From: Dehalococcoidia bacterium
GTDB taxonomy: Bacteria; Chloroflexota; Dehalococcoidia; Tepidiformales; Tepidiformaceae
DNA: 64,000 bases
Assembly (NCBI GenBank): GCA_020847985.1
Contig: JADLBC010000003.1
Location: 62,001 to 126,000, forward strand
Direction: 5' to 3'
Shown here: positions 696-56,558 of the stretch, in pieces
How positions within the stretch are numbered: the first letter of the stretch is position 1
Layout of the letters: each line of letters opens with the position of its first letter
The notes under the pieces: model-generated
What the model was told of the DNA's origin: nothing
The model's database searches: none
The model's input: the letters and a program-made list of their open reading frames with translations, nothing else
Program-made: the position numbers and the translations under genes

Positions 696-876
696 TAACA
701 GAAAGAGAAAAGAGAAAGGAGGAAGGAGATAAGTGGGCTCGAGGCGCGAGGCTCGAGGCCCGAGGCGGCCAACCCCACGGGGAGCAAGCCCGCGCCGGGG
801 TTGCCGGCTCAGCACTCAGCACTCAGCACTCAGCACTCGTCACCCCCTGGGAACTGGGAACCGGCAACTGGGAACT
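696..876. repeat. Composite heptamer element H4-H3-core-H2-H1
   Basis: Complete example of the ordered element. H4 purine heptamers occupy 699-731, H3 (CTCGAGG) 737-765, the core with AACCCC / GGGGTTGCC arms about 768-806, H2 (ACTCAGC, about 4 copies) 808-838 and H1 (GGGAACT/C) 846-876. The H1 end abuts the stop codon of the 878-1285 gene. The H4 end lies just upstream of the 661 gene. No open frame with gene-like content is present. Confidence 0.9.
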
Positions 877-877
877 C

Positions 878-1285
878 TCAGTCGCCAAAGACGATTGCCG
901 CGGCGCCGTCGAGCGCGTCTTCCAGGCGGCTGAGGGCTTCCTGGCCGCGCGCTTTCTTGTTCGCCGAACCGTCCTGGTCCGCGGCCGTTTTCGCGAGCGC
1001 GCGGCCTTCGCGGACGGCCGTCCAGGCTTCGCGGTAACGCGCGAACGCGCCCGCGCGGAGGCTGGCCGCCGCCGCCACCGTGCCTTTGCGCACCGACTCC
1101 TCGATGCGCTTGCCGGCGTTATCCAACCGGCTCGCCATCTGTTGCGCCGCCGCCGCGCGGTCGCGCTCCTGCTCGGATTCGAAGCGGCGGTCATTCATGG
1201 CATCGCGCGCTTCTTCCAGCGCTTCGCTCGCCTGCAGGATCGACTCGGCGGCCTCGGAGAGACGCTTGCTCTGCTCTTCGTTCAC
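878..1285 (-). CDS. Small helical (coiled-coil) protein, unknown function
   Basis: 135 residues from a GTG start preceded by AAGGAG with 5-nt spacing, a strong ribosome site. The protein is almost entirely charged/Ala-rich helix (MNEEQSKRLSEAAESILQAS..., EESVRKGTVAAAASLRAG) with no signal peptide, membrane segment or cysteines. It looks like a cytoplasmic coiled-coil protein. I do not recognise a family. The stop codon directly abuts the H1 repeat on its 3' side. Confidence 0.75.
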   Translation of the reverse strand: MNEEQSKRLSEAAESILQASEALEEARDAMNDRRFESEQERDRAAAAQQMASRLDNAGKRIEESVRKGTVAAAASLRAGAFARYREAWTAVREGRALAKTAADQDGSANKKARGQEALSRLEDALDGAAAIVFGD

Positions 1286-1529
1286 GGCTGCTCCTTCGCA
1301 TCGCCGGCCACGCCCCGGGGCGGCACGGCAGGTTCACGGCGACCGCAGTATAGGGCGCGAACGGCCCCGGCACGGTCAAGCACGGCCGCCCGGCGGAGCC
1401 CCAAACCCGGCCAAAGGCGGAGATTCGCGCTCGGACGCAGGCCCGATGGCGGCGCGCCCCCTTCGCGCGACAGTGATTCCCGAGGGAGGCGGCGCCACGA
1501 TGCACCGCCCGAGGGAGAGAACCACCGCC

Positions 1530-2288
1530 ATGGCCACTTCGCCGACCACCATCCACCCGCTTACCGTGGCCGCCGCGCCGGGACAACCCCGCGGCGCCTG
1601 GACCACCGTCCTCACGTCCGCGCTCATCGCCGTCGCCGTCCTCTTCGTGGGAATGATGCTCGTCGATGGCGAATTCATCCCGCCGCTCGCCGTCTTCGGT
1701 GTCGTCTTCGCGGGCCTCGCCGCGGGCGTGACGATGATCGCGCGCCGCTGGATGTCCGCCGTCGCCGGCGTGGCCAGCCTCGCCATCCTCGCGCTGCATG
1801 CCATCTTCGGCCTCGAAGACTTCGCCCACCCGGAGACGTTCTTCTCGTTCGTGCCCACGCTCGCCGTGGTGACGGGCACCGCGCTCGCGGTGGTTTCGGC
1901 CGCCGCCGTGACCTTCCGGCTGCCCACGCGCGCCGCCTATCCCGCGGGGGGCGCCGCCGTCGCGCTCGTCGCCGCCGCGATCGCGGTCTCGGGCATCGCC
2001 ACGGCCGGCCTCGAAAGCGACGCCCGCGCCACCAGCGATGTCAGCGTCGTCGCCCGCGACGTCGAATTCCCGGACAGCATCGCCGTGAACGCCGGCGAGG
2101 TTTCGTTCTTCGTCCAGAACAAGGACCGCTTCCGCCACACGTTCGTGATCGAAGGGCAGGATGTGAAGACGGAACTCCCCGGCTCGACGGCCCGCCGGGT
2201 GACGGCGACGCTGGCGCCGGGCACCTACACCTTCAAGTGCGATGTCCCCGGGCACGAGAGCATGAAAGGCACGATCATCGCCCGCTGA
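1530..2288 (+). CDS. Membrane-anchored cupredoxin-domain protein
   Basis: 252 residues. Five to six hydrophobic segments in residues ~25-165 (AALTSALIAVAVLFVGMML-type helices) are followed by an extracytoplasmic cupredoxin domain (~170-252). Type-1 copper ligands are visible: His in FRHTFVIEG, then Cys, His and Met in FKCDVPGHESMKG. It probably holds a mononuclear blue-copper site for electron transfer or copper handling at the membrane. ATG 1530 is chosen, with GGGAGAG upstream. An in-frame ATG at 1500 also has a GGGAGG and would add ten residues. It converges with the response regulator that follows on the other strand. Confidence 0.85.
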   Translation: MATSPTTIHPLTVAAAPGQPRGAWTTVLTSALIAVAVLFVGMMLVDGEFIPPLAVFGVVFAGLAAGVTMIARRWMSAVAGVASLAILALHAIFGLEDFAHPETFFSFVPTLAVVTGTALAVVSAAAVTFRLPTRAAYPAGGAAVALVAAAIAVSGIATAGLESDARATSDVSVVARDVEFPDSIAVNAGEVSFFVQNKDRFRHTFVIEGQDVKTELPGSTARRVTATLAPGTYTFKCDVPGHESMKGTIIAR

Positions 2289-2326
2289 CCACACGCCAGT
2301 TCGCGAATGCCCGCGGCGCGTTTTGG

Positions 2327-3001
2327 TCAGTCGCTGGGGTGCTTCACCGAGCGGCGAATGGCGAACGCCGCCGCCTCGACGCGCCGCGTGAGGCCGAGCT
2401 TGCCGAGGATGTCGCTCACGTGGTGCTTCACCGTCTTCTCGCTGAGGTACAGCTGCTCGCCGATTTCGCGGTTGGTCATGCCTTCGGCGATAAGATCGAG
2501 GATGCGCAGTTCGCGTTCGTTGAGCTGTTGGGCGAGGCGGTCTTCCTCGCTGACGACGTTGCCGCGGCGAATCTGCTCGATCACGGCGGCGCTGCTCACC
2601 GCGTCCAGGGTCTTGCCTCCCCGGCCGACGACGCGCATCGCCTCCAGCAGCTCGGCGGTTTGCACTTCCTTGAGCATGAAGCCGCTCGCCCCGGCGACAA
2701 TCGCCGCCATTACGGCGCGCTCATCGGCGTACGACGTGAGCATGAGGACGTTCGTGCCCGGCACTTCGGAAAGGATGTCGCGGCAGGCTTCGATGCCATC
2801 GAGCCGCGGCATGCGTACATCCATCACCACCAGGTCCGGGCGGACGCGCTTCGCCTCCCTGACGGCTTCCTCGCCGTCGCGCGCTTCGGCCACGACGGAA
2901 AATTCCGGGTGAGCGCGCAGGGCCGCCTTCAGGCCGGTGCGCACGAGGTCGTGGTCGTCCGCGAGCAGGACGTGGATGGTTTCGGTTTGCCCCTCAGTCA
3001 T
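2327..3001 (-). CDS. NarL/LuxR-family response regulator
   Basis: 224 residues. The receiver domain (~8-125) shows the acidic pocket DDHD, the phosphoacceptor Asp in VVMDVRMPRLDG, Thr/Ser in MLTSYAD and Lys in GFMLKE. The C-terminal LuxR helix-turn-helix (~155-220) contains LNERELRILDLIAEGMTN and LSEKTVKHHVSDILGKLG. It is a DNA-binding output protein activated by phosphorylation. Its ATG overlaps the stop of the upstream sensor kinase by 8 nt (ATGACTGA), so the two are translationally coupled and form a cognate pair. The usual length for NarL-type regulators is matched. Confidence 0.95.
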   Translation of the reverse strand: MTEGQTETIHVLLADDHDLVRTGLKAALRAHPEFSVVAEARDGEEAVREAKRVRPDLVVMDVRMPRLDGIEACRDILSEVPGTNVLMLTSYADERAVMAAIVAGASGFMLKEVQTAELLEAMRVVGRGGKTLDAVSSAAVIEQIRRGNVVSEEDRLAQQLNERELRILDLIAEGMTNREIGEQLYLSEKTVKHHVSDILGKLGLTRRVEAAAFAIRRSVKHPSD

Positions 3002-4145: not shown

Positions 4146-4291
4146 CACTCAATCATATCGAATTTGTACCATTCCAGACCATGCACGGGGACGAACGGCC
4201 GTTACCCATCCCGCACCCGGCGCGATCGACCGCTCCGGAGGCATGATCGGCACGGCGGCCGGGGGTGGCGTGGCGGGCGTACAATCCCCGC

Positions 4292-6006: not shown

Positions 6007-6203
6007 GTTCGGGCGCGGTCAAGGCTTCTGTGGCGAACATCTCGTTCGCGCGTGCCGTTCACACTCGGTTGGGAACTCTGACGTTCACGTTATAGAGAGC
6101 TCCTATCGGACCCAGTTATACATCCATCGCAAACCACATTGACCCGGCGGCCCCCCGGTAGGCACGGTGGATACAGGGAACCAACCCGAGGAGGTTGAAC
6201 ACC

Positions 6204-6640: not shown

Positions 6641-6770
6641 CGGTATCGGCTGTCGGCTGTCGGCTATCGGCCGTCGGCCGTCGGCTGTCGGCCATCGGCG
6701 TGGACGTGGCGGTCACGTGGCCCGTTCCGGGGTTGCCCTGCCGATAGCCGGCGGCCGATAGCCGACGGCC
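6641..6770. repeat. Symmetric H6 heptamer element (array - spacer - inverted array)
   Basis: Left array 6641-6700 is eight degenerate copies of CGGCTGT (CGGCTAT, CGGCCGT and similar). The right array 6740-6770 is the inverted form (CCGATAG, CCGGCGG). The spacer carries a GGGGTTGCC core arm. The right array lies inside the 3' end of the following minus-strand gene and encodes its last residues. Confidence 0.88.
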
Positions 6771-8175: not shown

Positions 8176-9117
8176 ATGCGAATCCCCCGGCGCGCGCTGT
8201 TCGCCTGGGCCGCCGGGCTCCTCGTCGGGTGCAACGGCGGCGGCGACGGCGACGCCGTCGTCACCATCAGCACCCCCGCGACATCGAGCCTGCTCACCAC
8301 GCCCACCGTCGCCCCCACACCCGCGCCGCCGCCGGAAATCGTGACGTCCGCCGACACCATCTTCCAGGCCGGTGCGTCGATCGTGTCCGTCGTCGGCGAC
8401 CTCTCGGGCGGGGCGATCAGCTTCCTCAACCGCACCTATCAGCTCACGAAGGGCGCGCGCAGCTACTACGCCGTCATCCCCGCCGATGCCGACGACCCCG
8501 CCGGCACGCACCCCATGAAGGTGGACTTCGTCCTGAAAAACGGGTCGAAGGGTTCGATGCCGTACCAGCTCACCATCCGCAAGACGGCCTGGACGGTGGA
8601 TTCGATCACCGTCGGCCCGCAGCTCGCGCCGCTGCTCGACCCGAAGGTGCAGGCTGCCGAGCTCGCGATGCTCAGGGGCATTTACAGCCAGTACACGCCG
8701 GAGAAGCTCTGGGACGGGTCCTGGGCGCTGCCCATCGGCGGCGATGTCACCACCCGCTTCGGCGAGGAGCGTTCGTACAACGGCGCGCCCGTCTCCGGCC
8801 ACCACAGCGGCACCGACCTCGGAGCGGCCTCGGGGACGCCCGTCGGCGCCACGAACTCCGGGCGCGTGGCGATGGCGCGGCAGGTCCAGCTTCGCGGCAA
8901 CATGGTCATCCTCGACCACGGCGGCGGGCTCTTCTCGGGCTACGCGCACTTGTCGTCGTTCGCCGTGGCCGAAGGCGAAATGGTGCGCCAGGGCGACCCC
9001 CTCGGCTTCGTCGGCAGCACCGGCCTGAGCACGGGCGCGCACCTGCACTGGGAGATGGCCGCGGGCGCCATCCTCGTCGACCCCTACCGCTTCACCGATG
9101 GCACGAACGGGTTTTAG
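8176..9117 (+). CDS. M23-family metallopeptidase lipoprotein
   Basis: 313 residues. Lipoprotein signal with lipobox LVGC (Cys ~19), then a Thr/Pro-rich linker, a beta-rich middle domain (~55-150), and a C-terminal LytM/M23 domain (~190-305). Zinc ligands and catalytic residues are present: H and D in GHHSGTDLGA and HLHW near the end. It should cleave peptidoglycan peptide bonds or act as an envelope-remodelling factor outside the membrane. TATGAT at 8164-8169 lies exactly 6 nt before the ATG, indicating a leaderless promoter. Confidence 0.92.
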   Translation: MRIPRRALFAWAAGLLVGCNGGGDGDAVVTISTPATSSLLTTPTVAPTPAPPPEIVTSADTIFQAGASIVSVVGDLSGGAISFLNRTYQLTKGARSYYAVIPADADDPAGTHPMKVDFVLKNGSKGSMPYQLTIRKTAWTVDSITVGPQLAPLLDPKVQAAELAMLRGIYSQYTPEKLWDGSWALPIGGDVTTRFGEERSYNGAPVSGHHSGTDLGAASGTPVGATNSGRVAMARQVQLRGNMVILDHGGGLFSGYAHLSSFAVAEGEMVRQGDPLGFVGSTGLSTGAHLHWEMAAGAILVDPYRFTDGTNGF

Positions 9118-9372
9118 TTCCCAGGGACCGGTTCCCGGGGGGTGACGAGTGCTGAGTGCTGAGTGCTGAGTGCTGAGTGCTGAGCCGGCAACCCCGGCGC
9201 GGGCATGCTCCCCGTGGGGTTGCCCGCCTCGGGCCTCGAACCTCGAACCTCAAGCCCGTTTCTCCTTCCGCTTTTCTCTTATCTCTCTCGATAGGGTTGC
9301 CCCAATCACCTCGAGCCTCGAACCTCGAGCCTCGAGCCCCATCTCTCCTCTCCCTTTTCTCTCTCCCCAGGA
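9118..9372. repeat. Composite heptamer element, reverse orientation, with doubled H3/H4
   Basis: Reads H1 (9118-9140), H2 as GAGTGCT repeats (9147-9184), core hairpin with GGCAACCCC and GGGGTTGCC arms (9186-9223), H3 as CCTCGAA repeats (9228-9255), H4 pyrimidine tract (9260-9290), a second core fragment, H3 again (9312-9343) and H4 again (9344-9372). It is the reverse complement of the 696-876 element with the H3-H4 part duplicated. It fills the gap before the 9381 gene. Confidence 0.9.
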
Positions 9373-9795: not shown

Positions 9796-9914
9796 GAAGG
9801 CCAAAAAGAGGAAAGAGAAAGAGGAAAGAGAAACGCGAGGCGCGAGGCGAGAGGCTGGGGCCACCCCGGGGGAGCCTCGCTCCCCCGGGGCCGCCCCTGG
9901 GAACTGGGAACCGG
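9796..9914. repeat. Composite heptamer element H4-H3-core-H1
   Basis: Starts directly after the stop of the 9381-9794 gene. H4-type purine heptamers (GAGAAAG, GAGGAAA) occupy 9800-9832, an H3 variant (GCGAGGC) 9833-9856, a GC-rich core with CCCCGGGGGAG arms 9858-9893, and H1 9895-9914. It lies between convergent genes and ends at the stop codon of the PCuAC gene. Confidence 0.85.
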
Positions 9915-13881: not shown

Positions 13882-13912
13882 TCCCCGGTTCCCGGTTCCC
13901 GGTCCCCCGGTA
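13882..13912. repeat. Short H1 heptamer array (minus sense)
   Basis: Four degenerate GGTTCCC/GGTCCCC heptamers between the convergent ends of proB and the 86-residue gene. No core or second array is present. It is a minimal form of the intergenic elements. Confidence 0.75.
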
Positions 13913-14825: not shown

Positions 14826-14855
14826 TCACCCGCCGCATCCTACGCTCTGCCCGCC

Positions 14856-14924
14856 CTCATTCCTCATTCCTCATTCCTCGAACCTCGACCCCCGTTTCTC
14901 CTTCCTCTTTTCTCCTTTCTCTCC
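14856..14924. repeat. H5-H3-H4 heptamer arrays (reverse orientation, no core)
   Basis: CTCATTC repeats (H5, 14856-14878), CCTCGAA/CCTCGAC (H3, 14876-14893) and a pyrimidine tract of TTTCTCC/TCCTCTT heptamers (H4, 14894-14924). It lies between the divergent starts of the RelA/SpoT gene and pth, with the H4 pyrimidine face 12 nt from the pth ATG. Confidence 0.85.
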
Positions 14925-18144: not shown

Positions 18145-18252
18145 TAGTTCCCAGGCCCCAGTTCCCAGTGACCAGTCGGCAACCCCGGGGTCCGGCCTTC
18201 GCCCCCGCACCGGTCCGATCCCCTGGGAACTGGGAACCGGGAACCGGGAACT
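18145..18252. repeat. Symmetric H1 element (inverted H1 - core - H1)
   Basis: GTTCCCA-type heptamers at 18145-18172, a core with AACCCCGGGG at 18178-18220, and GGGAACT/GGGAACC heptamers at 18222-18252. It lies between the divergent starts of the LysM gene and the glycosyltransferase. Confidence 0.85.
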
Positions 18253-19573: not shown

Positions 19574-19677
19574 CCGAGTTCCCGGTTCCCAGTTGCCAGT
19601 GACCAGGGGGTCAGCCCCGTATCGGGGAGCACGCCTTCCCCGGGTCATCCCCCTCAGCACTCAGCACTCAGCACTGC
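19574..19677. repeat. Composite element: inverted H1 - core - H2
   Basis: AGTTCCC-type heptamers at 19579-19605, a core with GGGGGTCAGCCCC...CCCCGGGTCATCCCC at 19606-19645, then ACTCAGC repeats at 19648-19674. Situated between two plus-strand genes. Confidence 0.85.
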
Positions 19678-20867: not shown

Positions 20868-21235
20868 CGAAGCGCGCGGAGCTGGGCGCGTTCGGCGAAC
20901 GCGTCGCCGGGCACCGCCTCGCCGCCGCTGGCCTCACCGTCGTCGCCCGCAACGTGCGCGTCCCGGGGGGCGAAATCGACCTCGTCTGCCAGGAGGGCAC
21001 GGACACCGTCTGTGTCGAAGTTCGCACGCGGCGCGCGCACCCTGGCGCGGCGGCCGAATCGCTCACCCCGGGCAAGCGCGCGCGGATGTGGCGCGCCGCC
21101 TTCGCCTACGCCGAGCGCGAAGGGATCGACCCCGCGAACCTGCGCGTCGACCTGCTCGTGATCGACCTCGCCCCCGATGGCAGCCCCGCGCACATCGACA
21201 TCCTCCGCGCCATCGAGCTCCCGGAGAGCTTTTAG
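20864..21235 (+). CDS. YraN-family (UPF0102) nuclease-fold protein
   Basis: 123 residues; the ATG overlaps the rnhB stop (ATGA), and the rnhB-yraN order is common in bacteria. Endonuclease-like core: GAFGERVAGHRLAAAGLTVVARNVRVPGGEIDLVCQEGTDTVCVEVRTR, with the D...ExR arrangement of the family (Arg where many have Lys). A role in DNA processing is likely by fold, though not established. The TAG stop is itself the first heptamer of an H7 array. Confidence 0.93.
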   Translation: MTKRAELGAFGERVAGHRLAAAGLTVVARNVRVPGGEIDLVCQEGTDTVCVEVRTRRAHPGAAAESLTPGKRARMWRAAFAYAEREGIDPANLRVDLLVIDLAPDGSPAHIDILRAIELPESF

Positions 21236-21358
21236 CTGCTGGCTCTTAGCTGTTGGCTATTGGCTGCTGGCTATTAGCGTGGCCGGATTCGCCGCTCTGG
21301 GGCGCTCCGCGGCACGGGGTTGCCACACCAACAGCCAACAGCTAATAGCCAGTAGCTA
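21233..21358. repeat. Symmetric H7 element (array - core - inverted array)
   Basis: Left array 21233-21278 runs TAGCTGC, TGGCTCT, TAGCTGT, TGGCTAT and so on, starting at the stop codon of yraN. The right array 21329-21358 is the inverted form (AACAGCC, AACAGCT, AATAGCC). Between them is a GC-rich core ending GGGGTTGCC. It can fold into one long imperfect hairpin and may act as a terminator. Confidence 0.88.
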
Positions 21359-22794: not shown

Positions 22795-22866
22795 CCGTCC
22801 CGCGCGGGGAGGCATCCTGGCCGGGGGTTGCCGACTCAGCACTCAGCACTCAGCACTCAGCACTTC
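22795..22866. repeat. Composite element: core - H2
   Basis: A core with GCGGGGAGG...GGGGGTTGCC arms (22795-22832) is followed by about four ACTCAGC heptamers (22834-22865). H1 is missing. Confidence 0.82.
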
Positions 22867-28359: not shown

Positions 28360-28494
28360 GCTGTTAGCTGCTGGCTCTTAGCTGTTAGCACGCACGCGAA
28401 AGGGGCGCCCCATGGGCGCCCCTTCGTTGAACCATTCGACCGGGCTCCCGCGTAGGGTTGCCCCGCTAACAGCTAACAGCTATTAGCTAGCGGC
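28360..28494. repeat. Symmetric H7 element around a terminator hairpin
   Basis: Left array 28360-28390 (AGCTGTT, AGCTGCT, GGCTCTT), hairpin 28400-28424 (11-bp stem AAGGGGCGCCC, loop CAT), a GGGTTGCCCC core piece at 28455, and inverted array 28465-28494 (GCTAACA, GCTATTA). The stop codon of the SodC paralogue falls inside the right array. Confidence 0.9.
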
Positions 28495-31763: not shown

Positions 31764-32597
31764 ATGCCAGAGATCCCCGAGCTCGAGGCCATCCGCGGCT
31801 TCTTCAACGAAAACCTCGCCGGCAAACGCATCGAGACCGCCGACACGCGTATCCCGCCGGTCTTCCGCACGCCCGCGAAGGAGATCCGCGAAACCCTCCC
31901 CGGCGACGTCTTCGGCGACGTCCTGCGGCCCGGCAAGTTCCTCCTTTTCCCCCTCGCCAGCGCCCGCGTGCTCGCCATCAACCCCATGCTCACGGGCCGC
32001 TTCCAGTACGTGGACCCGAAGACGCGCATCGCCGCGAAGACCTGCCTGGTGCTCGGTATCGAAGGTGGCCACAGCTTCCGCTACGCCGATGAGAAGCTCA
32101 TGGGGAAGGTCTACCTGGTGCCCGCCGATGGCCTTTCGCTCATCCCCAACTGGGATTCGAACGGCCCCGACCTGCTCGCCGAAAGCCTCACCGAAGAGGC
32201 ATGGCTGGCCGGGCTGAAGCGCTATCGCGGCGCCATCAAGGGCATCCTCACCAACGCCGAGTTCGTCCAGGGCATCGGCAACGCCTACAGCGACGAGATC
32301 CTCTGGGAAGCGAAGATCAATCCCTACACCCCGAAGACGAAGCTAACCGAAGACGACCTCCGTAGCCTCTTTCGCGCCTCCCGCGAGGTGATGGCCTGGG
32401 CCACCCCCCGCGTGCGCGACCGCATGGTGAAAGACGGCGTGCTGGATTACGAAGAACGCCGCGATTTCATGCGCGTCCACCGCCTCGGCGGCAAACCCTG
32501 CCCCCGCTGCAACACCCCCATCACCGAGATCACCGCCAACCAGCGCATCACCAGCTACTGCCGCACCTGCCAGCCCGGGGGCCCCGCGCTGCGGTGA
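31764..32597 (+). CDS. Formamidopyrimidine-DNA glycosylase family protein
   Basis: 277 residues. Begins MPEIPELEAI, giving the catalytic Pro and Glu after Met removal. GKFLLFPL supplies the conserved Lys, the H2TH region includes KGILTNAEFVQGIGNAYSDEILW, and the C-terminal zinc finger is CPRCNTPITEI...SYCRTCQPG. It excises oxidised bases from DNA (Fpg/Nei family). MPEIPELE differs from the MPELPEVE of classical MutM, so Nei-like specificity is open. TACGAT lies 6 nt before the ATG (leaderless). Confidence 0.92.
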   Translation: MPEIPELEAIRGFFNENLAGKRIETADTRIPPVFRTPAKEIRETLPGDVFGDVLRPGKFLLFPLASARVLAINPMLTGRFQYVDPKTRIAAKTCLVLGIEGGHSFRYADEKLMGKVYLVPADGLSLIPNWDSNGPDLLAESLTEEAWLAGLKRYRGAIKGILTNAEFVQGIGNAYSDEILWEAKINPYTPKTKLTEDDLRSLFRASREVMAWATPRVRDRMVKDGVLDYEERRDFMRVHRLGGKPCPRCNTPITEITANQRITSYCRTCQPGGPALR

Positions 32598-32742
32598 GTG
32601 CTGAGTGCTGAGTCCTGAGTGCTGAGTCGGCAACCCGGCGCGATCTGGGCTCCCCCGGGGTTGCCCCGCTCGAGCCTCGATCCTCGAACCTCGAGCCCCA
32701 TTTCTCTTTCCTCTTTTCTCTTTCCTCTTCTCTTTTCCCCGG
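32596..32742. repeat. Composite element H2-core-H3-H4 (reverse orientation)
   Basis: GAGTGCT repeats (32596-32626), core GGCAACCC...GGGGTTGCCCC (32629-32667), CCTCGAT/CCTCGAA/CCTCGAG (H3, 32670-32697) and TTTCTCT/TTCCTCT pyrimidine heptamers (H4, 32699-32740). It starts at the stop codon of the Fpg-family gene and ends 34 nt before the next ATG. Confidence 0.9.
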
Positions 32743-32775: not shown

Positions 32776-33588
32776 ATGCGACGCACCCTGTTCGGCGCGC
32801 TGGCCGCGGTGGCTTTGCTTTCCGCGTGCGGCGGCGCCGCCAGCCAGAAGTCCGGCGGCATCCCGCCTTCGGCGCCTACCGCCCCCGCCGGCGCCGCGCG
32901 CTCCGTGCCCACCGTGCGCGCGAACATCGCCGCCACGGCCACCACCGAGTCCGCTTCCGAAGGCTTCGGCGGCAGCACCGAACCGCTCGCTGCCGCCGCG
33001 CCCGCCGGCATCGAACCCGTCGTCCTCCGCACCGTGCGCGCCGCCAACGAATTCGGCTACGACCGCATCGTTTTCCAGTTCGAAGGACAGCTGCCGCCGG
33101 GCTACTCCATCGCCTACGTCACGAACCCCACCGCCTGCCCTTCGCCCACGCCATTCGTCGAGCCCACGCCCACACCCACGCCTTCGCCCACGGTCAAAGC
33201 CTCGACGCCGACGCCGAAGCCCACGAGCACCCCCACCCCGACGCCCGACCTCTCGGTCACGCCTACCCCCACCCCGACGCGCACGCCGACGCCCACGCCG
33301 ACGCGTACCCCCACCCCGACGCCCACGCCCACGCCGATCCCGGTGGTCATCAGCGGCACGGCCTCGCTGGTCATCAAGTTCACGCCCGCGCTCGCCCACG
33401 ACCCCGATGCGAATCCCGTGGTGAAGACCGAACTGAACGGCGGCTCGCAGGCGCTCTTGCAGGCCAAGCTCACCTGCGACATCAACAACACCGTCGCGTG
33501 GACCATCGGCCTGAGCACGAAAGCCCCCTTCCGCGTGAGCACCCTCGAATCGCCCGGCCGCCTCGTCCTCGATATCGAACAGCCGTAG
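32776..33588 (+). CDS. AMIN-like lipoprotein split by a Thr/Pro linker
   Basis: 270 residues. Lipobox LLSAC (Cys 18), Ala/Pro-rich linker, then the first half of an AMIN-like beta domain (AANEFGYDRIVFQFEGQLPPGYSIAYV). A 70-residue insert of TPTP repeats follows at ~118-190. The second half resumes with GTASLVIKFTPALAHD...AWTIGLSTKAPFRVSTLESPGRLVLDIEQ. Normally this domain is continuous with a short loop here. It is surface exposed and probably binds envelope glycans. The DNA of the insert is a simple ACGCCCAC/ACCCCGAC repeat. Confidence 0.85.
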   Translation: MRRTLFGALAAVALLSACGGAASQKSGGIPPSAPTAPAGAARSVPTVRANIAATATTESASEGFGGSTEPLAAAAPAGIEPVVLRTVRAANEFGYDRIVFQFEGQLPPGYSIAYVTNPTACPSPTPFVEPTPTPTPSPTVKASTPTPKPTSTPTPTPDLSVTPTPTPTRTPTPTPTRTPTPTPTPTPIPVVISGTASLVIKFTPALAHDPDANPVVKTELNGGSQALLQAKLTCDINNTVAWTIGLSTKAPFRVSTLESPGRLVLDIEQP

Positions 33589-33595: not shown

Positions 33596-33622
33596 TGAGG
33601 CGCGAGGAATGAGGAATGAGGG
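33596..33622. repeat. Short H3-H5 heptamer array
   Basis: GAGGCGC then GAGGAAT, GAGGAAT, GAGGGTG between convergent genes. No core. Confidence 0.7.
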
Positions 33623-35416: not shown

Positions 35417-35769
35417 GAGAGGAAAGAGAAAAGAGGAAGGAGAAAAGGGGCTCGAGGTGCGAGGCTCGAGGCCCGAGCGGGACAACCCCACGGGGAGCGA
35501 TCTTCCCCGCGGGTTGCCCCTGGGAACTGGCAACCTGGAACTGGGTACTAACGAAGGGCTCGAGGCTCGAGGCCCGAGGCCCGATCGGGACAACCCCACG
35601 GGGAGCGATCTTCCCCGCGGGTTGCCCCTGGGAACTGGCAACCTGGAACTGGGTACTAACGAAGGGCGCGAGGCCCGAGGCCCGAGGTCCGAGCGGGGCA
35701 ACCCCACGGGGAGCGATGTTCCCCGTGGGTTGCCCCCTGGGAACTGGAGACCGGAAACTGGGAACTACC
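35415..35769. repeat. H4 array followed by a triplicated H3-core-H1 module
   Basis: H4 purine heptamers at 35418-35447. Then three head-to-tail copies of one module, each H3 (CTCGAGG-type), core (CAACCCCACGGGGAGCGATC...GGGTTGCCCC) and H1 (GGGAACT-type): 35448-35555 (108 bp), 35556-35663 (108 bp) and 35664-35769 (106 bp). Copies 1 and 2 differ at only a few sites, all in H3. The third has diverged more. The last base abuts the ATG of the next gene. Confidence 0.95.
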
Positions 35770-36279: not shown

Positions 36280-36500
36280 GAGGAAAGAGAAAAGAGGAAG
36301 GAGACGAGGGCGGGCGAGGAATGAGGGATGAGGACTGAGGAATGAGGCGGGGGCGACCCCACCCGGGGGAGACTGCCTCGCGCCGGGGTTGCCGACTCAG
36401 CACTCCGCACCCAGCACTCAGCAGGTTAGACTGAGACACCCCCCGGTCGAACGGGTTCCCCCGGGGTCGCCCCTGGGAACTTGGAACCGGGAACTGACCA
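36278..36500. repeat. Composite element H4-H5-core-H2-core-H1
   Basis: H4 (36278-36308), H5 GAGGAAT/GAGGGAT/GAGGACT (36318-36347), core GGGGGCGACCCC...GGGGTTGCC (36349-36390), H2 variants ACTCAGC/ACTCCGC/ACCCAGC (36392-36424), a second core with GGTCGAACGGG...GGGGTCGCCC (36440-36472) and H1 (36474-36496). It is the fullest ordered element in the window. Confidence 0.9.
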
Positions 36501-36618: not shown

Positions 36619-37452
36619 ATGGACGCTCCTCTTCCGGGCGACGCCGTCGCGCGCGCCTACGATCGTTGGCGGGTTGCGATCCACGCGCCCGCGATTTCGC
36701 GACGGACCGCCGCCGCGAACGCAGCCTTCTTCCTTCCTCACCTCACTCCGGGCATATCGCTGCTGGACCTCGGGTGCGGCCCGGGGAGCATCACCGCCGG
36801 GCTCGCCCAGGTCGTGGCACCGGGCGCGGTCACCGGGCTCGACATCAATCCCGCGACGGTCGCTTCTGCCCGTGCGGCCTACGGCGGCACCCCCGGCCTT
36901 TCGTTCACGATTGGCGATGCGAGTGCCGTGCCCTTCGCGGACGCGACGTTCGACGCCGTCTTCGCGCACGCGCTCCTTCAGCATGCCCACAGCCCCTCGG
37001 CGGTCCTTCGCGAAGCCTTCCGCGTGCTCCGTCCCGGCGGAGTGGTCGGTATCGCCGATGCCGACCACGGTGGCTCCCTCATCGCCCCCGAGACTCCCAC
37101 CCTGCGCGCGTCGCTGGACCTGATGGTGCGCGTGCAGGCGTTGCGCGGCGGCGATTACCAGGTCGGCCGATCGCTCGGCCTCCTGCTCGCGGAGGCCGGC
37201 TTCACGGACATCAGCGTCTCCGCCGCCGGCGGCTGCGATGGCACCCCTGCCGTCAAAGCCCGCGCCGCCGAGCGCCAGGCCCGCATCCTCAGCGGCGAGC
37301 CGTTCGCGGCCTTCGTCGAAGCCGCCGGCCTGGAAACGCGCGCCCGCCTCACCGCCATGGCCGAAGCCTGGCGCACCTGGGCCACCACCCCGGGCTCCCT
37401 CTGGACCCGCTGGTGGTTCCAGGCCACCGCGGTGAGAGGAAATGAGGAATGA
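36619..37452 (+). CDS. SAM-dependent methyltransferase (UbiE-like)
   Basis: 277 residues. Motif I LLDLGCGPGSITAGLAQ, then GLDINPATVASARAA, IGDASAVPFADATFDAVFAHALLQH and LRPGGVVGIADAD: a small-molecule methyltransferase of the UbiE/COQ5 type with a C-terminal region for substrate. AAGGTGG lies 8 nt before ATG 36619. The last six residues and the stop (VRGNEE) are read from an H5 array (GAGGAAT), so the repeat defines the C-terminus. Converges with a second methyltransferase. Confidence 0.88.
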   Translation: MDAPLPGDAVARAYDRWRVAIHAPAISRRTAAANAAFFLPHLTPGISLLDLGCGPGSITAGLAQVVAPGAVTGLDINPATVASARAAYGGTPGLSFTIGDASAVPFADATFDAVFAHALLQHAHSPSAVLREAFRVLRPGGVVGIADADHGGSLIAPETPTLRASLDLMVRVQALRGGDYQVGRSLGLLLAEAGFTDISVSAAGGCDGTPAVKARAAERQARILSGEPFAAFVEAAGLETRARLTAMAEAWRTWATTPGSLWTRWWFQATAVRGNEE

Positions 37453-37546
37453 GGAATGAGGAATGAGGAATGAGGGGGCAACCCCGGGAGCGTCAGTTTC
37501 CCCCGGGGTTGATCCCCTGGGAACTGGGACCCGGGAACCGGGAACT
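37433..37546. repeat. Composite element H5-core-H1 between convergent methyltransferase genes
   Basis: About five GAGGAAT heptamers (37437-37473), core GGGGCAACCCCGGG...CCCGGGGTTGATCCCC (37475-37518), H1 (37519-37546). The left end encodes the C-terminus of the 36619 gene. The core and H1 encode that of the 37493 gene on the other strand. Confidence 0.9.
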
Positions 37547-38321: not shown

Positions 38322-38466
38322 TAGAGAGAGAAAGGAGAAAAGAGGAAGGAGAAATGGGCTCGAGGGTTCGAGGCTCGAGGCCCGAGCGGGACGACCCCGG
38401 GGGAGAAAGCCTCCCCCGGGGTTGCCACCTTGGTACTGGGAACCGGGAACTGGGAACTGGGACCTC
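38322..38466. repeat. Composite element H4-H3-core-H1
   Basis: H4 GAGAAAG/GAGGAAG (38324-38352), H3 CTCGAGG variants (38355-38384), core GACCCCGGGGGAG...CCCCGGGGTTGCC (38386-38427) and H1 (38432-38462). The H4 pyrimidine face points at the start of the 38311 gene, and the H1 end lies at the stop of the PBP gene. Confidence 0.9.
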
Positions 38467-38471
38467 GGACC

Positions 38472-41306
38472 TTACCGCCCCGGTGGTGGCTTCGTGGGTT
38501 TGGCCGCCGTCGGTGTCGGGACGGCTGCTGTCGGTGTGGGCGCGGCTGCTGTCGGCGTGGGAACGGCCGGCGTCGGTGTGGGTGGCGGTGCGGTGGGCTT
38601 CGCGGGTGCCGGAGTGGGCTGCGCGGGAGCCGCCGTTGGGGTCGCCGCGATCGCCGCCTGCGGAGGCCTCGCCAAGGGCGTGGGAACCGCCGCCTGCGGG
38701 GGAACCGCCGTCGCCGCGCCCGTCACCAGCACCGGGATGCCCGCGAAGCCGCTTGTCGGGATGCCGCGTGCCCGCGCCAGCGCGAGTGCCTGGTCGGCCT
38801 GGAACGGTGGCAGCGGTACGTACCCCTTGCCGTCGCAGTCGCCCTTATAGCTGATGTCCGTGCGCACCCAGCCTTCGATCATCTGCCCGCAGCCGCCGCG
38901 CGCACCCCGTTCGGTGGTCGCCGTCTGGTATTTCACCCATGCCACGTCCTGGGGGCGGAGGTCATCGAAGTTCGCCGGCGTTTCGAATTCGCCCTTCGCT
39001 TTCAGGTCGGCGTGGTACTGCGCCATCCAGCGTTTGAAGAGCCGGATCGTCGTGTTCGCCGACGCGTAGCCGGCCCCCGCGCCATCGCGCACGAGCTGCT
39101 TGTTCGAATTCCCAACCCAGACGGCGGTGCCCGCGTACCGCGTGTACCCGTTCATCCAGGTCGCGAGCGTGTCGTTCGCCGTCGGGCCCTGCTGGGTACC
39201 CGTCTTGATGCCCATCGGGATCTTCGTGCCATCGAGGAAGGCATCGAGCAGGTTGTCGTCGTTCGAACCGCCGCACGGCCAGATGATCCAGCGGGCGGTG
39301 CAATCCGACATAATCGAATGCAGCAGCCACACCGATTCCGGGTCCACGACGGCCTTGCGCACCAGGTCGTCGCCGTGCTTGTAGAGCGTCTCCCCCTGGA
39401 TCGCCTTTACTTCGAGCACTACGACCGGGTCCAGCTCGCGCGTGCCGGGGAGGCGTGTGTGCCCGCGCGAGAAGTCCAAATACTGGCTCCGCGCCTTCGC
39501 TTTGTCGTCATCCGTCTTCGCGTCCGCGAACGAAGCCAGGTCCCCCGGGTCGATCGGCTTCGCGAGCGTGGGCACGCCGACCATGTACCCCATGTTCGCG
39601 ATGGTCGCGTTCATGTAGGCCATGTCGATCGCCCGCACGTTGGCGCCGCCCACGGCCACCGAGGGGCCGTAGAAGATGGCGGAGTGGTCGTACCAGGTGG
39701 GGTCGAAGCCGCTGTCCAGCGTGGTGATGCCGAGCGCCTTGGCGTACGCGATCACGCTCGGGATGCCGATCTCCTGCGCCGCCCGGAACGCTCCTACGTT
39801 CTGCGAACCGCCCAGCGCCGACCGCACGGTGATGAGCCCTTCGCCCCCGTTGCCGGGCCGCGGATTGAGGATCGTCACCCGGTTCTGCACCGCCTTCGGG
39901 TCGCTGTAGATCATCGGGCTCGTGTCCCAGATCGAGCTCAGCGGCACCTTCTGGAGCTTGTCCATGTAGCCCAGGTAGACCGCCGGCTTCAGCGACGAAC
40001 CCGGCTGGTTGATCTCCGTGAGCTGGTCGATCTGCCCGGCGACGCGCGGGTCCGACGTCCACGTCGGATCGATGTTCGGGGCGTAGACGATGATCTCCCC
40101 GGTGGTGGGCTCGATCGTGGCGATCGCGGCGTTGTGGCAGTCGCACCCCGCCTTCAGCCCCGCCGCGAGGTTCTCGTTCATCATCGCGATCGCCTTCTGG
40201 GTCTCTTCCCAGTCGATCGTGGTGGTGACCTTGTAGCCGGCGCTGTGGACGCTCTCTTCGCAGTTCTCGGTGTGGGGGAGGCGGGGCAGGGTGCCGGCCT
40301 CGCACATGCGCACGAGCCGGGGCTCCACCTGCGAATCGATCCAGGCGGCCGCCTTCAGCGCGCTCGTCGCGGGGTAGACGAGCACGGGCTCGGCGTAGGC
40401 GGCGTCCGCCTGCTCGCGCGTAATCCGGCCGTGCTCCGCGAGCAGGTCGAGCACGTGCCGCTGCCGCTCCTTGGCCGCGCCCGAGAGGACCGTGCGGCCC
40501 TGCTCATCGGTGATGCACACGCCGGCGTCATCGCGTTCGCAGTTCAGGCGAGGGTGGTAGTCGGTGGGCGCGGCGGGCACGCCCGCGAGCACGGCGGCTT
40601 CGGCGAGCGTGAGGTCCGCCGCCGGCTTGCGGAAGTACCCCTCGGAGGCCGCTTCCACGCCCACGTAGCGGTCCGCGTACGAGATGGAGTTCAGGTACCA
40701 GTTCAGAATCTGGTGCTTGTCGGCCTCCTGCTCCAGTTCGAACGAATACGCGATCTCCTTCAGCTTGCGCTCCAGCGTCCGGGGGGCGACACACACGCGC
40801 GTGCCGTTCACCTCCTCGCAGTCGTTCGTGAGGTAGACGTTCTTCACGAGCTGCTGGGTGATGGACGAACCGCCGCTGCCGCTGCCGATGCCGCCGCCCG
40901 CGTAGTTTTCGCGCACCGCCCGGAAGAGCCCACCGGGGTTCACGCCGGGGTTCGTCCAGAAGCTGTTGTCCTCGGTCGAAACCGTCGCTTCCTGCATCCA
41001 GGGCGAAATGCGGTCCAGGGGCACCGGGTTCGCGAGCGGCGCGTGCGGGTTCGAAATCGTTCCCAGCAGCACGCCGTTCCGGTCATAGACTTCCGTCAGG
41101 CCCGTGTACTCGGCATTCAGCTTCTCGGTGATGGGCACGTAGCCGCTCGCGAGGCTCTGGTAGGCAAGGAAGAGCCCCCCGCTCCCGGCCGCGGCGGCCA
41201 CCGTCAGGAAGACGACCGACAACAGCGCCGGGATGAGCCACCAGGGCCGTTTCCATTCTGGATCGCCCTCGGCGCGCAACAGCTGGTTCCGAACGACAGG
41301 GTGCAC
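38472..41306 (-). CDS. Penicillin-binding protein 1A-type transglycosylase/transpeptidase
   Basis: 944 residues. Cytosolic start, signal anchor (LIPALLSVVFLTVAAAAG), GT51 domain with catalytic Glu in STEDNSFW and GGSSITQQLVKNVYLT, then the transpeptidase domain: SxxK in NQPGSSLKPAVY, SxN in GGSQNVGAF and KTGTQQGPTANDT. It polymerises and cross-links peptidoglycan. The last ~85 residues are a Pro/Thr/Ala repeat tail (PTPAPAKPTAPPP). GTG start with GGAGG 5 nt upstream. Extra Cys pairs (ECDCH, RMCEAG, ENCEE) may form disulphides outside. Confidence 0.96.
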   Translation of the reverse strand: MHPVVRNQLLRAEGDPEWKRPWWLIPALLSVVFLTVAAAAGSGGLFLAYQSLASGYVPITEKLNAEYTGLTEVYDRNGVLLGTISNPHAPLANPVPLDRISPWMQEATVSTEDNSFWTNPGVNPGGLFRAVRENYAGGGIGSGSGGSSITQQLVKNVYLTNDCEEVNGTRVCVAPRTLERKLKEIAYSFELEQEADKHQILNWYLNSISYADRYVGVEAASEGYFRKPAADLTLAEAAVLAGVPAAPTDYHPRLNCERDDAGVCITDEQGRTVLSGAAKERQRHVLDLLAEHGRITREQADAAYAEPVLVYPATSALKAAAWIDSQVEPRLVRMCEAGTLPRLPHTENCEESVHSAGYKVTTTIDWEETQKAIAMMNENLAAGLKAGCDCHNAAIATIEPTTGEIIVYAPNIDPTWTSDPRVAGQIDQLTEINQPGSSLKPAVYLGYMDKLQKVPLSSIWDTSPMIYSDPKAVQNRVTILNPRPGNGGEGLITVRSALGGSQNVGAFRAAQEIGIPSVIAYAKALGITTLDSGFDPTWYDHSAIFYGPSVAVGGANVRAIDMAYMNATIANMGYMVGVPTLAKPIDPGDLASFADAKTDDDKAKARSQYLDFSRGHTRLPGTRELDPVVVLEVKAIQGETLYKHGDDLVRKAVVDPESVWLLHSIMSDCTARWIIWPCGGSNDDNLLDAFLDGTKIPMGIKTGTQQGPTANDTLATWMNGYTRYAGTAVWVGNSNKQLVRDGAGAGYASANTTIRLFKRWMAQYHADLKAKGEFETPANFDDLRPQDVAWVKYQTATTERGARGGCGQMIEGWVRTDISYKGDCDGKGYVPLPPFQADQALALARARGIPTSGFAGIPVLVTGAATAVPPQAAVPTPLARPPQAAIAATPTAAPAQPTPAPAKPTAPPPTPTPAVPTPTAAAPTPTAAVPTPTAAKPTKPPPGR

Positions 41307-50733: not shown

Positions 50734-50734
50734 A

Positions 50735-50879
50735 GTTTCCAGGTCCCAGTTCCCGGTTCCCGGTTCCCAGGGGATCAGCCCCATGGGCAAACGCCTCCCC
50801 CGGGATTCGCCGGCACGCCGGGGCGCAGGCCCCCGGCCGGGTAGCCCCTGGCAACTGGGAACTGGCAACTGGGAACTCC
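50735..50879. repeat. Symmetric H1 element (inverted H1 - core - H1)
   Basis: GGTCCCA/GTTCCCG heptamers (50742-50771), a long core GGGGATCAGCCCCATGGG...CCCCCGGGATTCGCC with a second GC hairpin around GCCGGCACGCCGGGGC (50772-50846), then GGCAACTGGGAACT repeats (50848-50878). It lies between two plus-strand genes. Confidence 0.88.
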
Positions 50880-51934: not shown

Positions 51935-52008
51935 GTGGCCTCCCGCCTGTCGCACCGGGCCCTCGCCGGCCGAATCTCCCGGTAGGGCACCTCGCCGGGA
52001 GCACCACG

Positions 52009-52716: not shown

Positions 52717-52719
52717 CGC

Positions 52720-53532: not shown

Positions 53533-53726
53533 GTCGCTCATCCTCCGGGAGAACTCCCCTCCCCGGTTATACATCGCCCGCGCGGGCGCCGTGCGCCACT
53601 TCGAGGAAGCTGCAATCGCACGCGCGCCACGCAACACACGCGCAAGCCTTCGACCAGCCCTGTAACCCTGCCTCTTCCCCCGGCCGGGGACACTGGAAGC
53701 TGGCCATCCCGGCCCGGGAGGATGAC

Positions 53727-54077
53727 GTGAGTTCACCGCTGAACAAGGAAACCATCACCGGCATGGTCCCGCCCCTCGGCGCCCCCGTGCGCACCATGGA
53801 CGGCGAGCACCTGGGAACCGTGAAGGAAGTCTCCGGCCAGCAGTTCAAGGTCGATGCACCCTACTCCCGCGACTACTGGCTCAGCCTCACGCTCGTGTCC
53901 GAAGCCAGCGCCGAGTGCGTCACCGTCGGCTGCGACGCCTCCGCGCTCGATGACTACAAGCTCGATGGCCCCTCCACCGTCACCAGCGAATCCCCCATCC
54001 TCGATGCCCAGCGCGAGACGTTCCCCACGATCGAGGACAAGGAACTCCGCCGCGACCGTATGATCCACGGCAGCTAA
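53727..54077 (+). CDS. PRC-barrel-like small protein
   Basis: 116 residues, GTG with GGGAGG 5 nt upstream. N-terminal beta barrel pattern GAPVRTMDGEHLGTVKEVSGQQFKVDAPYSRDYWLSLTLV as in PRC-barrel/DUF2171 proteins, followed by an acidic tail (SPILDAQRETFPTIEDKELRRDRM). Such proteins often bind RNA, metal ions or partners. It lies upstream of the MrfA-like helicase, which has its own promoter. Confidence 0.75.
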   Translation: MSSPLNKETITGMVPPLGAPVRTMDGEHLGTVKEVSGQQFKVDAPYSRDYWLSLTLVSEASAECVTVGCDASALDDYKLDGPSTVTSESPILDAQRETFPTIEDKELRRDRMIHGS

Positions 54078-54146
54078 ACGGCAGCCCCGGCGCACGGCCG
54101 TGGTGCGCCCGGCGGCCCGGCACGCGCAAATTCGGTACTTCACATC

Positions 54147-54168
54147 CGAACGGGTGTTCTGGTATCGT
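54147..54168 (+). promoter_or_regulatory. Putative LexA (SOS) box overlapping the helicase promoter
   Basis: CGAACGGGTGTTC at 54147-54159 matches the CGAAC-N4-GTTC form of LexA operators known from Gram-positive bacteria. A -10 box TATCGT follows at 54163-54168, exactly 6 nt before the ATG at 54175. LexA bound here would cover the -35/spacer region. Confidence 0.65.
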
Positions 54169-54174
54169 CCCCGC

Positions 54175-56475
54175 ATGGCGAAGCCGAAGCCTGCCTACCC
54201 GGTGCCCGCCGTGCGCCCCATCCCGCCGGCGGTCGTCGCCGAGTCCGTGGTGTCGCACCTCCGTGCGATGCCCACCGAGACCATCGTCCGCCACCTCGAG
54301 GAGGCGCCCCCACGCTTCGCCGAGTGGCCCGAAGGCCTCGACCCCCGTCTCGTGAGCGCGCTGCAGCGCCGGGGCATCACCCGGCCCTACACGCACCAGG
54401 CCCGCGCCATGGAGCACGCCATCGCCGGCCGCAACGTCGTCGTCGTGACGCCCACCGCCAGCGGCAAGACCCTCTGCTACAACGCCCCCGTCCTCGATGC
54501 CATCCTCAAGGACCCCGGCGCCCGCGCCCTCTACCTCTTTCCCACGAAAGCGCTCGCCGCCGACCAGCTGGACGAACTGCACGGGCTCGTCGGCGATATC
54601 GGCGCCACCATCGGCAACTTCACCTACGACGGCGACACCCCCGCCGATGCGCGCCGCGCCATCCGCCAGGCCGGCCACATCGTCCTCACGAACCCGGACA
54701 TGCTGCACTCGGCCATCCTGCCCCACCACACGAAGTGGACGAAGCTGTTCGAAAGCCTCGAATACATCGTCCTGGACGAACTCCACATGTGTAGCGGCGT
54801 CTTCGGCAGCCATGTCGCGAACGTCCTCCGCCGCCTGCGCCGCATCTGCCAGTTCTACGGCAGCAATCCCACCTTCATCCTCTGCTCCGCGACCATCGCC
54901 AACCCGGACGAGCTCGCCGCAGCCCTCGTGGGCGACGATGTCGCGCTCGTGGACGACAACGGCGCCCCGCGCGGCGAACGCGTGATTGTGCTCCACAACC
55001 CGCCCGTCGTGAACCGCGAACTGGGTATCCGCCAGTCCTCGCTCAAGGCCACGCGCGATATCGCCGCCCGCCTCATCCGCGCCGGCGTGCAGACGATCGT
55101 GTTCGCGCCCAGCCGCATGCGCGTCGAAATCCTGCTCACCTACCTCCGCGACGTGCTTCGCAACAAGCCCGGCGATGCGGAACGCGTCGCCGGCTACCGC
55201 GGCGGCTACCTCCCCAACGAGCGCCGCGCCATCGAACGCGGCCTGCGCGATGGCTCCGTCCGCGGGGTCGTCGCGACGAACGCGCTCGAACTCGGTATCG
55301 ATATCGGCGGCATGGGCGCGAGCGTCGTCATGGGCTATCCCGGCTCCCTCGCCAGCCTCTGGCAGCAGTTCGGGCGTGCCGGCCGCCGCCACGATGCCGC
55401 GCTCTCCGTCCTCGTCGCCTCCTCCAACCCGCTCGACCAGTACGTCCTCACCCACCCGGACTACGTCTTCGAACGCAGCATCGAACGCGGCCTGATCGAC
55501 GCGGACAATCTCTACATCCTCGCCAGCCACCTCAAGTGCGCGGCCTTCGAACTGCCCTTTGAAGAAGGCGAGGTCTTCGGCGCGCACACCGGCGAGTTGC
55601 TCGACATCCTCGCCGAGGAGGGCGTGCTCCAGAAGGCCGGCCACCGCTACCACTGGATGTCCGAAGCCTATCCGGCAGAGCAGGTCAGCCTTCGCACCGC
55701 CAGCACCGACAACTTCGTCATCATCGAGCAGGGGCCCAACCCGCGCGTCATCGGCGAGTGCGACCGCCCCAGCGCGCCCCTGCTCATCCACGAGGACGCG
55801 ATCTACATCCATCGCGGCCAGCAGTACCAGGTCGAATGGCTCGACTGGGACGACAAGAAGGCCTACGTCACGCCCGTCGCCGTCGACTACTACACCGATG
55901 CCCAGCTCGCGGTCGAACTGAAAGTGCTCGATGGCTTCCGCGCCGAACCCAGCGCCGGCGGCGAGTTCGAGGCCGGCGAAGTGGCCATCACCTTCCTCGC
56001 CACCATCTTCAAGAAGGTCAAGCTCAATACCCACGAGAACGTCGGCTGGGGCAAGATCGCGATTCCCGAGGAGAGCTTCCATACCTCCGCCATGTGGCTC
56101 AGCTTCGATGAGCGCGCGACCGCCGGCCTCGACCGCGACCAGATCGCGACGGGGCTCGCGGGCATCGCCCACCTGCTGCGCAACATCGCGCCCGTCTACT
56201 GCCTGTGCGACGCCCGCGACATCGGCGCCGAGCCCCAGGTGCGGTCGCCGCACAGCCAGCGCCCGGCCGTGTTTCTCTACGACATGGTCCCCGGCGGCGT
56301 CGGCCTCTCCGACCGCCTGTTCGATGTCCGGGAGGAGCTCATCGAGGCCGCCCTTGCGATGGTGCTCGCCTGCCCCTGCGAAAGCGGCTGCCCGGCCTGC
56401 GTCGGCCCGCAGGTGGAGGCGAATCCGAGCGCGAAGCGCAGCGCCACCCTCCTCCTTGAGCGCACGTTCGGGTAG
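54175..56475 (+). CDS. MrfA-like DEAD/H-box helicase (DUF1998)
   Basis: 766 residues. Walker A TPTASGKT, motif II VLDELHM, motif III SATIANP, motif V/VI ALELGIDIGGMG and QFGRAGRRHD, then the C-terminal DUF1998/MZB region with a four-Cys zinc site CPCESGCPACVGP. This is the layout of the YprA/MrfA helicases, which act in repair of mitomycin-type DNA damage in Bacillus with the MrfB exonuclease. No mrfB is adjacent. Leaderless promoter with a LexA-like box. Confidence 0.93.
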   Translation: MAKPKPAYPVPAVRPIPPAVVAESVVSHLRAMPTETIVRHLEEAPPRFAEWPEGLDPRLVSALQRRGITRPYTHQARAMEHAIAGRNVVVVTPTASGKTLCYNAPVLDAILKDPGARALYLFPTKALAADQLDELHGLVGDIGATIGNFTYDGDTPADARRAIRQAGHIVLTNPDMLHSAILPHHTKWTKLFESLEYIVLDELHMCSGVFGSHVANVLRRLRRICQFYGSNPTFILCSATIANPDELAAALVGDDVALVDDNGAPRGERVIVLHNPPVVNRELGIRQSSLKATRDIAARLIRAGVQTIVFAPSRMRVEILLTYLRDVLRNKPGDAERVAGYRGGYLPNERRAIERGLRDGSVRGVVATNALELGIDIGGMGASVVMGYPGSLASLWQQFGRAGRRHDAALSVLVASSNPLDQYVLTHPDYVFERSIERGLIDADNLYILASHLKCAAFELPFEEGEVFGAHTGELLDILAEEGVLQKAGHRYHWMSEAYPAEQVSLRTASTDNFVIIEQGPNPRVIGECDRPSAPLLIHEDAIYIHRGQQYQVEWLDWDDKKAYVTPVAVDYYTDAQLAVELKVLDGFRAEPSAGGEFEAGEVAITFLATIFKKVKLNTHENVGWGKIAIPEESFHTSAMWLSFDERATAGLDRDQIATGLAGIAHLLRNIAPVYCLCDARDIGAEPQVRSPHSQRPAVFLYDMVPGGVGLSDRLFDVREELIEAALAMVLACPCESGCPACVGPQVEANPSAKRSATLLLERTFG

Positions 56476-56558
56476 TCGGCCGTCGGCTGTCGGCTGTCGG
56501 CGGGCCAACCCCGTGCGGGGCTGATCCCCTGGGAACCGGGAACCGGGAACTGGGAACT
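56476..56558. repeat. Composite element H6-core-H1
   Basis: CGGCTGT/CGGCCGT heptamers (56477-56502) beginning at the helicase stop codon, core GGGCCAACCCCGTGCGGGGCTGATCCCC (56502-56529), H1 (56530-56556). Confidence 0.88.

Follow-up and report, generated by a model that had tools for sequence, protein, structure and literature searches.

Heptanucleotide repeat arrays behind genes in a Dehalococcoidia genome

Arrays in the window and across the genome

The stretch analysed here (the window, 64,000 nucleotides) spans positions 62001-126000 of contig C3 of a Dehalococcoidia bacterium and carries, in the gaps between its genes, short arrays of seven-base units. The genome (label G000) comprises 3.28 Mb in 66 contigs and is 94% complete. 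A reading made from the sequence alone had named seven families of such arrays between 696 and 56558, H1 (GGGAACT), H2 (ACTCAGC), H3 (CTCGAGG), H4 (purine), H5 (GAGGAAT), H6 (CGGCTGT) and H7 (TAGCTGT/TGGCTAT). All seven were recovered with Tandem Repeats Finder and a lag-match scan for period-7 segments. Tandem Repeats Finder returned period-7 arrays, together with the multiples 14 and 21, at the sites named earlier, and the lag scan yielded 26-27 segments in exactly 18 gaps, the number that the sequence-only reading had given as approximate. A search of the window against Rfam gave no match.

Features are on the plus strand unless the minus strand is named. The series begins with a purine tract (H4, 702-728, a lag-7 segment), the H3 array GGCTCGA (736-766) and 4.4 copies of the H2 unit CTCAGCA (808-838), the latter two found by both scans, followed by the H1 array CTGGGAA (847-876); a minus-strand gene ends at 878, and from its stop codon this array reads AGTTCCC. 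Further H2 arrays lie at 19653-19675 and 22834-22864 (ACTCAGC, 4.4 copies), and H6 is represented by TCGGCTG at 6646-6699, all three again recovered by both scans, as well as by an array 3′ of a TAG at 56475-56501. H7 appears as GCTATTAGCTGCTG at 21228-21278 (Tandem Repeats Finder) and as GCTAACA at 28465-28489 (lag scan), H5 as GAGGAAT at 33604-33621 (lag scan), and an H1-type array of GGGAACC units ends the series at 56531-56558 (both scans). A different kind of repeat, an imprecise six-base one (GCCCAC) of about 170 bp, lies within a predicted gene at 33162-33335.

Genome-wide counts were made on a sample of 1.81 Mb. Lag 7 accounted for 119 arrays after removal of an all-N contig, lag 14 for 57 and lag 8 for a single one, whereas lags 4, 5, 10 and 11 gave none and the lags divisible by neither 3 nor 7 gave 0-2 arrays. 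Third-order Markov simulations produced 0-1 lag-7 arrays. The window itself had no array at lags 4, 5, 8, 10, 11, 16, 17, 19, 20, 22 and 23, and one at lag 13; a broad spread of periods is thus not a property of this genome. With the N contig included there were 120 segments, of which 113 were intergenic, four coding and three partly coding, despite the sequence being 87% coding according to a simple, home-made hexamer-based gene caller. The arrays therefore avoid gene bodies, as had been stated, and are not scattered at random inside coding regions. The main unit classes were ACTCAGC (31), AACTGGG (15), AACCGGG (12), AATGAGG (12) and AGCCTCG (11).

The arrays are clustered regionally. Contig C3 holds 52 of them in 214 kb vs four in 420 kb of contig C8, and 55 blocks of 20 kb were free of arrays where 26 were expected; the window is an array-rich region of the genome. 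No compositional split matches the division into array-rich and array-poor contigs (C3 vs C8), and a mixture of two organisms in the bin was rejected as its cause, the principal component analysis of tetranucleotides forming a continuum. Elsewhere, 80 kb of contig C23 (100001-180000, L188-L191) are unlike the remaining genome, with a low G+C of 0.63-0.67 and 32-74% called coding, and are possibly an island, a decayed region or foreign DNA. The contig excluded from the count of 119, C38 (L145, 2661 bases), is all N, i.e., masked; a search of the genome with this contig masked found no 16S rRNA gene in the rest of the bin.

Gene ends, strand polarity and turnover

At 28 of 79 stop sides an array overlapped the stop codon or lay within one base of it, and at none of 59 start sides was an array present within 10 bases. 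Arrays were most frequent in convergent gaps (17/97) and scarcest in divergent ones (9/258). Several arrays of the window show this placement directly. The gene at 31764-32597 ends in a TGA that belongs to the first TGAGTGC unit of the H2 array at 32595-32627, the stop codon 37450-37452 lies inside the GAGGAAT array (H5) at 37436-37475, the H1-type array CCCGGTT (13884-13907) stands close behind a stop codon, and the minus-strand H1 array AGTTCCC at 50734-50770 lies immediately 3′ of one. Inverted H1 arrays occur as well, namely CTGGCAACTGGGAA at 50848-50877 and the pair formed by 18223-18251 with its partner at 18146-18176 (50848-50877 and 18223-18251 by both scans).

Strand use is strongly biased. 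On the sense strand 3′ of stops the ratios were 36:8 for AGTTCCC, 16:2 for GAGTGCT, 31:4 for purine units and 11:4 for CTCGAGG-type units, and ahead of start codons the bias is inverted (1:39 over the five main families). Among the associations between family and stop codon, only that of H1 with TAG was significant (12/17, p = 0.003; H2 with TGA, p = 0.24). The idea that the arrays provide stop codons in all frames was rejected on inspection, as H1, H3 and purine units contain no sense-strand stops.

The relatives, compared with one genome per species, add a measure of how long arrays persist. The ACT family is present in 14 of 294 genomes of the class, patchily within the taxonomic family, and in relatives it has the same polarity (21:7). 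G001, a genome of the same genus, contains ACTCAGC arrays; an exact GGGAACT array of the searched length was not found in it. Of 23 orthologous gene 3′ ends with an array on at least one side, a single one had an array on both, which indicates a fast turnover of arrays. One gap flanked by conserved genes holds three arrays in G001 (L211:9399-9667) and none in the present genome (L157:12914-13079). Farther away, (CTGGGAA)4 was found at 95 places in GTDB genomes, spread over many phyla and including one archaeon. At such multi-phylum loci the preference for stops persists, with 17 arrays within 10 bases of a stop and six of a start, but the polarity is lost (15 AGTTCCC vs 16 GGGAACT 3′ of stops).

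These data bear on the possibility that the arrays are selected as transcribed 3′ elements, i.e., as mRNA binding sites or structures between stop codon and terminator, with a reader protein that would set the register. Their polarity 3′ of stops and its reversal upstream of starts speak for such a role, as do the recurrence of the same bias in ACT-family arrays of relatives, the enrichment in convergent and scarcity in divergent gaps, and published work describing Xanthomonas repeats as strand-biased and transcribed. However, conservation at just one of 23 orthologous loci, the free drift of the unit sequences and the loss of polarity across phyla argue against selection of this kind, and no candidate reader was identified in this analysis. 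We consider this explanation unlikely.

Palindrome-centred composites

Arrays are also parts of larger composites. Counted inward from the stop codon, these consist of a heptad arm (AGTTCCC, GAGTGCT, GAGGAAT, or a purine tract and then CTCGAGG), a GC palindrome such as GGGGCAACCCC-CGGGGAGC..GCTCCCCG-GGGGTTGCCCC, and a further arm on the other strand. Behind the stop codon at 9115-9117 and an H1 stretch, for example, 5.4 copies of GAGTGCT (H2, 9147-9184) precede the central palindrome GGCAACCCC...GGGGTTGCCC (9187-9225) and an H3 array of GAGGCTC-type units on the minus strand (9226-9251, lag scan); a further minus-strand H3 array, CCTCGAG in plus-strand letters, lies at 9309-9338 (both scans). 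The composite at 36316-36423 combines GAGGAAT (H5, 36316-36347, both scans), a palindrome (36349-36393) and ACTCAGC (H2, 36395-36423, Tandem Repeats Finder), and that at 38327-38472 a purine array (H4, 38327-38354, Tandem Repeats Finder), a palindrome (38389-38426) and an H1 array (38435-38472, both scans). A third begins with a purine tract (H4, 35418-35447, Tandem Repeats Finder) and continues as three 108-bp tandem copies of the whole composite of H3, palindrome and H1 (35448-35767; period 108, 3.0 copies, 91% matches), with the palindromes at 35479-35520, 35587-35628 and 35695-35737. Similar tandem composites exist at L179. Four of the six hairpins of the window beat shuffled sequences in folding (z from -2.3 to -5.5, including -5.5 at 38389-38426 and -3.2 at 35479-35520), whereas the other two folded no better than shuffles (z = -0.4 at 36349-36393, and -0.7).

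Such an anatomy could mean that a palindromic mobile element dispersed over the genome, akin to repetitive extragenic palindromic (REP) sequences or miniature inverted-repeat transposable elements, carries the arrays as its arms; it would insert behind genes and spread as a whole. The constant order of arm, palindrome and arm is in line with this, and so are the whole composites repeated in tandem. Moreover, of 115 intergenic arrays, 81 had a palindrome motif no more than 60 bases away, vs 736 of 5413 control intergenic sites (14%), and most intergenic palindrome motifs are near arrays. REP sequences and bacterial interspersed mosaic elements resemble the present composites in that their GC palindrome is dispersed among the gaps 3′ of genes, but they are not known to be heptad-based. 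On the other hand, a model of the palindrome found nothing above 15 bits in the 585 kb of array-bearing regions that were sampled from five relatives (G001, G017, G002, G005 and G110), so the arrays do not depend on the palindrome. REP systems with a REP-associated tyrosine transposase (RAYT) differ further, as the 94% complete genome gave no match to the Y1 transposase of this type (PF01797), and the block structure described below is that of local growth. Transposition of whole elements is, on balance, rather improbable as the origin of the arrays, and the palindrome looks like their companion, not their source.

Conversion in register and growth by sevens

The sequence-only reading had called the families unrelated, which is false at least for H3, H4 and H5. 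In the minus-strand array at 14855-14921, the plus-strand letters run in a single register through three CCTCATT units (H5), CCTCGAA and CCTCGAC (H3), CCCCGTT, TCTCCTT and CCTCTTT (H4). Likewise, CTCGAGC (H3) passes into CTCTTTC (H4) at 32669-32729 (minus strand, plus-strand letters), and a purine tract passes into H3-like GCGCGAG units at 9805-9855, each in one register. Spacings between families were multiples of seven in 7/10 cases for H3-H5, 9/19 for H4-H5 and 16/43 for H3-H4, where chance predicts 1/7. Lenient segment scoring may chain neighbouring arrays by chance, and weight was given only to cases that step by one or two bases; similarity between the consensus units of families was left out as evidence because free rotation and choice of strand raise chance similarity. 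In-register passages between families also occur in G001 (L213:8527-8727) and G002 (L250:8989-9108).

Relatives extend this picture to H1 and H2. ACTCAGC, ACTCGGA, ACTGAGC and ACTGGGA are mixed there within single arrays, ACTCAG and ACTCGG are spaced by multiples of seven in 15 of 17 cases (chance 1/7), and GGGAACT and ACTCAGC are linked in register via one-base intermediates, so that in relatives H1 and H2 are not unrelated either. A common register of H1 and H2 in the present genome was rejected (0/10) and holds only for the relatives. A succession of about 57 units is found in Vulcaniibacterium thermophilum (L031:6806-7208). It walks by one-step variants from CGCTTCC to CCCGATT, with runs of CGCTTCC, CGGTTCC, CAGTTCC, CCGTTCC and CCCGATT, and is a fossil record of stepwise amplification. 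Past an apparent one-base shift, the period of seven resumes in this array.

The arrangement of variants within arrays separates local growth from copying of an outside template. In the cross-phylum set, 502 neighbouring units were identical vs 261 expected in shuffled arrays (z = 22), and adjacent units differed by 0.53 bases, those at least four apart by 2.24. The excess of identical neighbours was also seen in relatives (z = 4.9) and, from just 11 arrays, in this genome (z = 2.3). Variant units thus stand in blocks, which points to repeated local duplication by slippage, one of the mechanisms suggested from the sequence alone; an external template would scatter them.

The step itself is narrow without being invariable. 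When the (CTGGGAA)4 arrays of loci from many phyla were masked, the 677 kb surrounding them gave 76 arrays at lag 7, ten at lag 8, four at lag 6 and none at lags 5 and 10. G001 has six eight-base arrays (e.g., GCGTGTCG) beside 26 seven-base ones, and eight- and six-base arrays adjoin heptads in other phyla too. The exact seven-base step that had been proposed is thus kept very strictly in this genome but not absolutely in others, and points to a sharply peaked preference, not a fixed template. Among the eight-base arrays of G001 are GCGTGTCG, CACGCCGA and AGTCCCTG (L210:16182-16230, L214:6933-6970 and L223:8378-8409); one of them resembles the heptad unit AGTCCTG. Writing of the arrays by an enzyme whose template or step measures seven bases, be it a telomerase-like reverse transcriptase or the template-independent polymerase of the sequence-only reading, would account for the very narrow step here (119 arrays vs one at lag 8). 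Yet the genome, 94% complete, gave no match to RVT_1 (PF00078), variants form blocks instead of scattered copying errors, related as well as distant genomes have occasional arrays of eight- and six-base units, and one step is common to many unit sequences. Such an enzyme is most improbable. What stands of the suggested general mechanism is a seven-base process independent of sequence, seen in the multi-phylum peak at lag 7 and in units that drift while the step stays.

We therefore favour, as somewhat the better-than-even reading, that the arrays are heptanucleotide long simple-sequence repeats grown in place by seven-base slippage, which drift, are re-amplified and have their seeds copied between loci. 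Growth would proceed by slipped-strand tandem duplication with a strong preference for a step of seven, for which the length of DNA gripped by the replicating polymerase has been proposed. Base-by-base mutation of units and amplification of the mutants would let an array walk from one family to another with its register kept, as the arrays just described do. Short seeds may be copied into further loci of a genome, with template switching at small homologies as the probable route, because the same few units occur at dozens of non-orthologous loci. Arrays would persist where they are harmless, from the stop codon up to the hairpin or terminator that follows, since insertions not divisible by three would wreck coding frames. 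Several points weigh against this reading. Slippage alone explains neither the strand polarity, nor the recurrence of few units at many loci and phyla, nor a step of eight that is about a hundredfold rarer than seven in this genome; the closeness of palindromes to arrays and the separate registers of H1 and H2 here have to be added, and the simplicity of the gene caller is a caveat. A bolder and doubtful extension is that bacteria and archaea share a property of replication or repair that duplicates DNA by seven, mainly on the transcribed but untranslated stretch from stop to terminator, where arrays would be born with fixed polarity. On this view, heptad arrays would record an interplay of transcription with replication.

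Part of this is already published. Mrazek, Guo and Shah (2007), as related in PMC4679880 and PMC4692102, described heptanucleotides as the commonest or over-represented units among the long repeats of many genomes and proposed slippage of a polymerase that contacts seven bases. The novelty implied for several heptad families outside cyanobacteria was therefore too strong. As far as those accounts go, the 2007 repeats share with ours the prominence of seven-base units among long tandem repeats. The present arrays also show the other traits of this class, namely a number above chance, a mostly intergenic, dispersed location and, at the orthologous 3′ ends, a presence that varies between relatives. 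The short tandemly repeated repetitive sequences of filamentous cyanobacteria (Calothrix), to the extent that PMC4692102 covers them, similarly include several heptanucleotide families per genome. In Xanthomonas, GGGAATC repeats are intergenic, preferably of four units, near or overlapping stops, strand-biased and present as convergent inverted pairs (Rehm et al. 2015, PMC4692102). The GGGNATC repeats of Xanthomonas and Nostoc agree with the present arrays in all these respects and in their scarcity between divergent genes (PMC4692102). However, the units here are GGGAACT, GGGAACC and others (AGTTCCC, GAGTGCT, GAGGAAT, CTCGAGG, purine, CGGCTGT), the GGG tracts found in three-tier quadruplexes are absent from several families, and the G-rich strand, which is sense behind stops in that system, is antisense here, with C-rich AGTTCCC as sense. 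Two Xanthomonas species share 83% of arrays (PMC4692102), vs 1/23 here between more distant species. The TAACTGA repeats of marine Beggiatoaceae (MacGregor 2015, PMC4679880) are likewise short direct repeats of heptamers at many intergenic sites and in distant phyla, but they lie just upstream of start codons, where the present genome has no array within 10 bases, and their single-base variants are rare as repeats, whereas variants abound here.

Stop-codon proximity, strand bias and inverted pairs are thus known for one Xanthomonas/Nostoc family, and new here are the in-register conversion of families, the statistics on variant blocks, composites centred on a palindrome and orthologous sites without an array; beyond the 2007 work, as it is reported in those two papers, stop-codon anchoring and orthologous turnover are added too. 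This lineage shows the process at work, with several families, in-register conversions, amplified variant blocks and array-free orthologous sites in sister species, and allows step size, strand polarity and the boundary at the stop codon to be measured, which can separate models of slippage, mobile elements and selection. Finally, a backwards control pattern, three copies of MGRSTCA, occurred 18 times in G068 and 14 times in G138, which indicates further heptad families in other families of the class.

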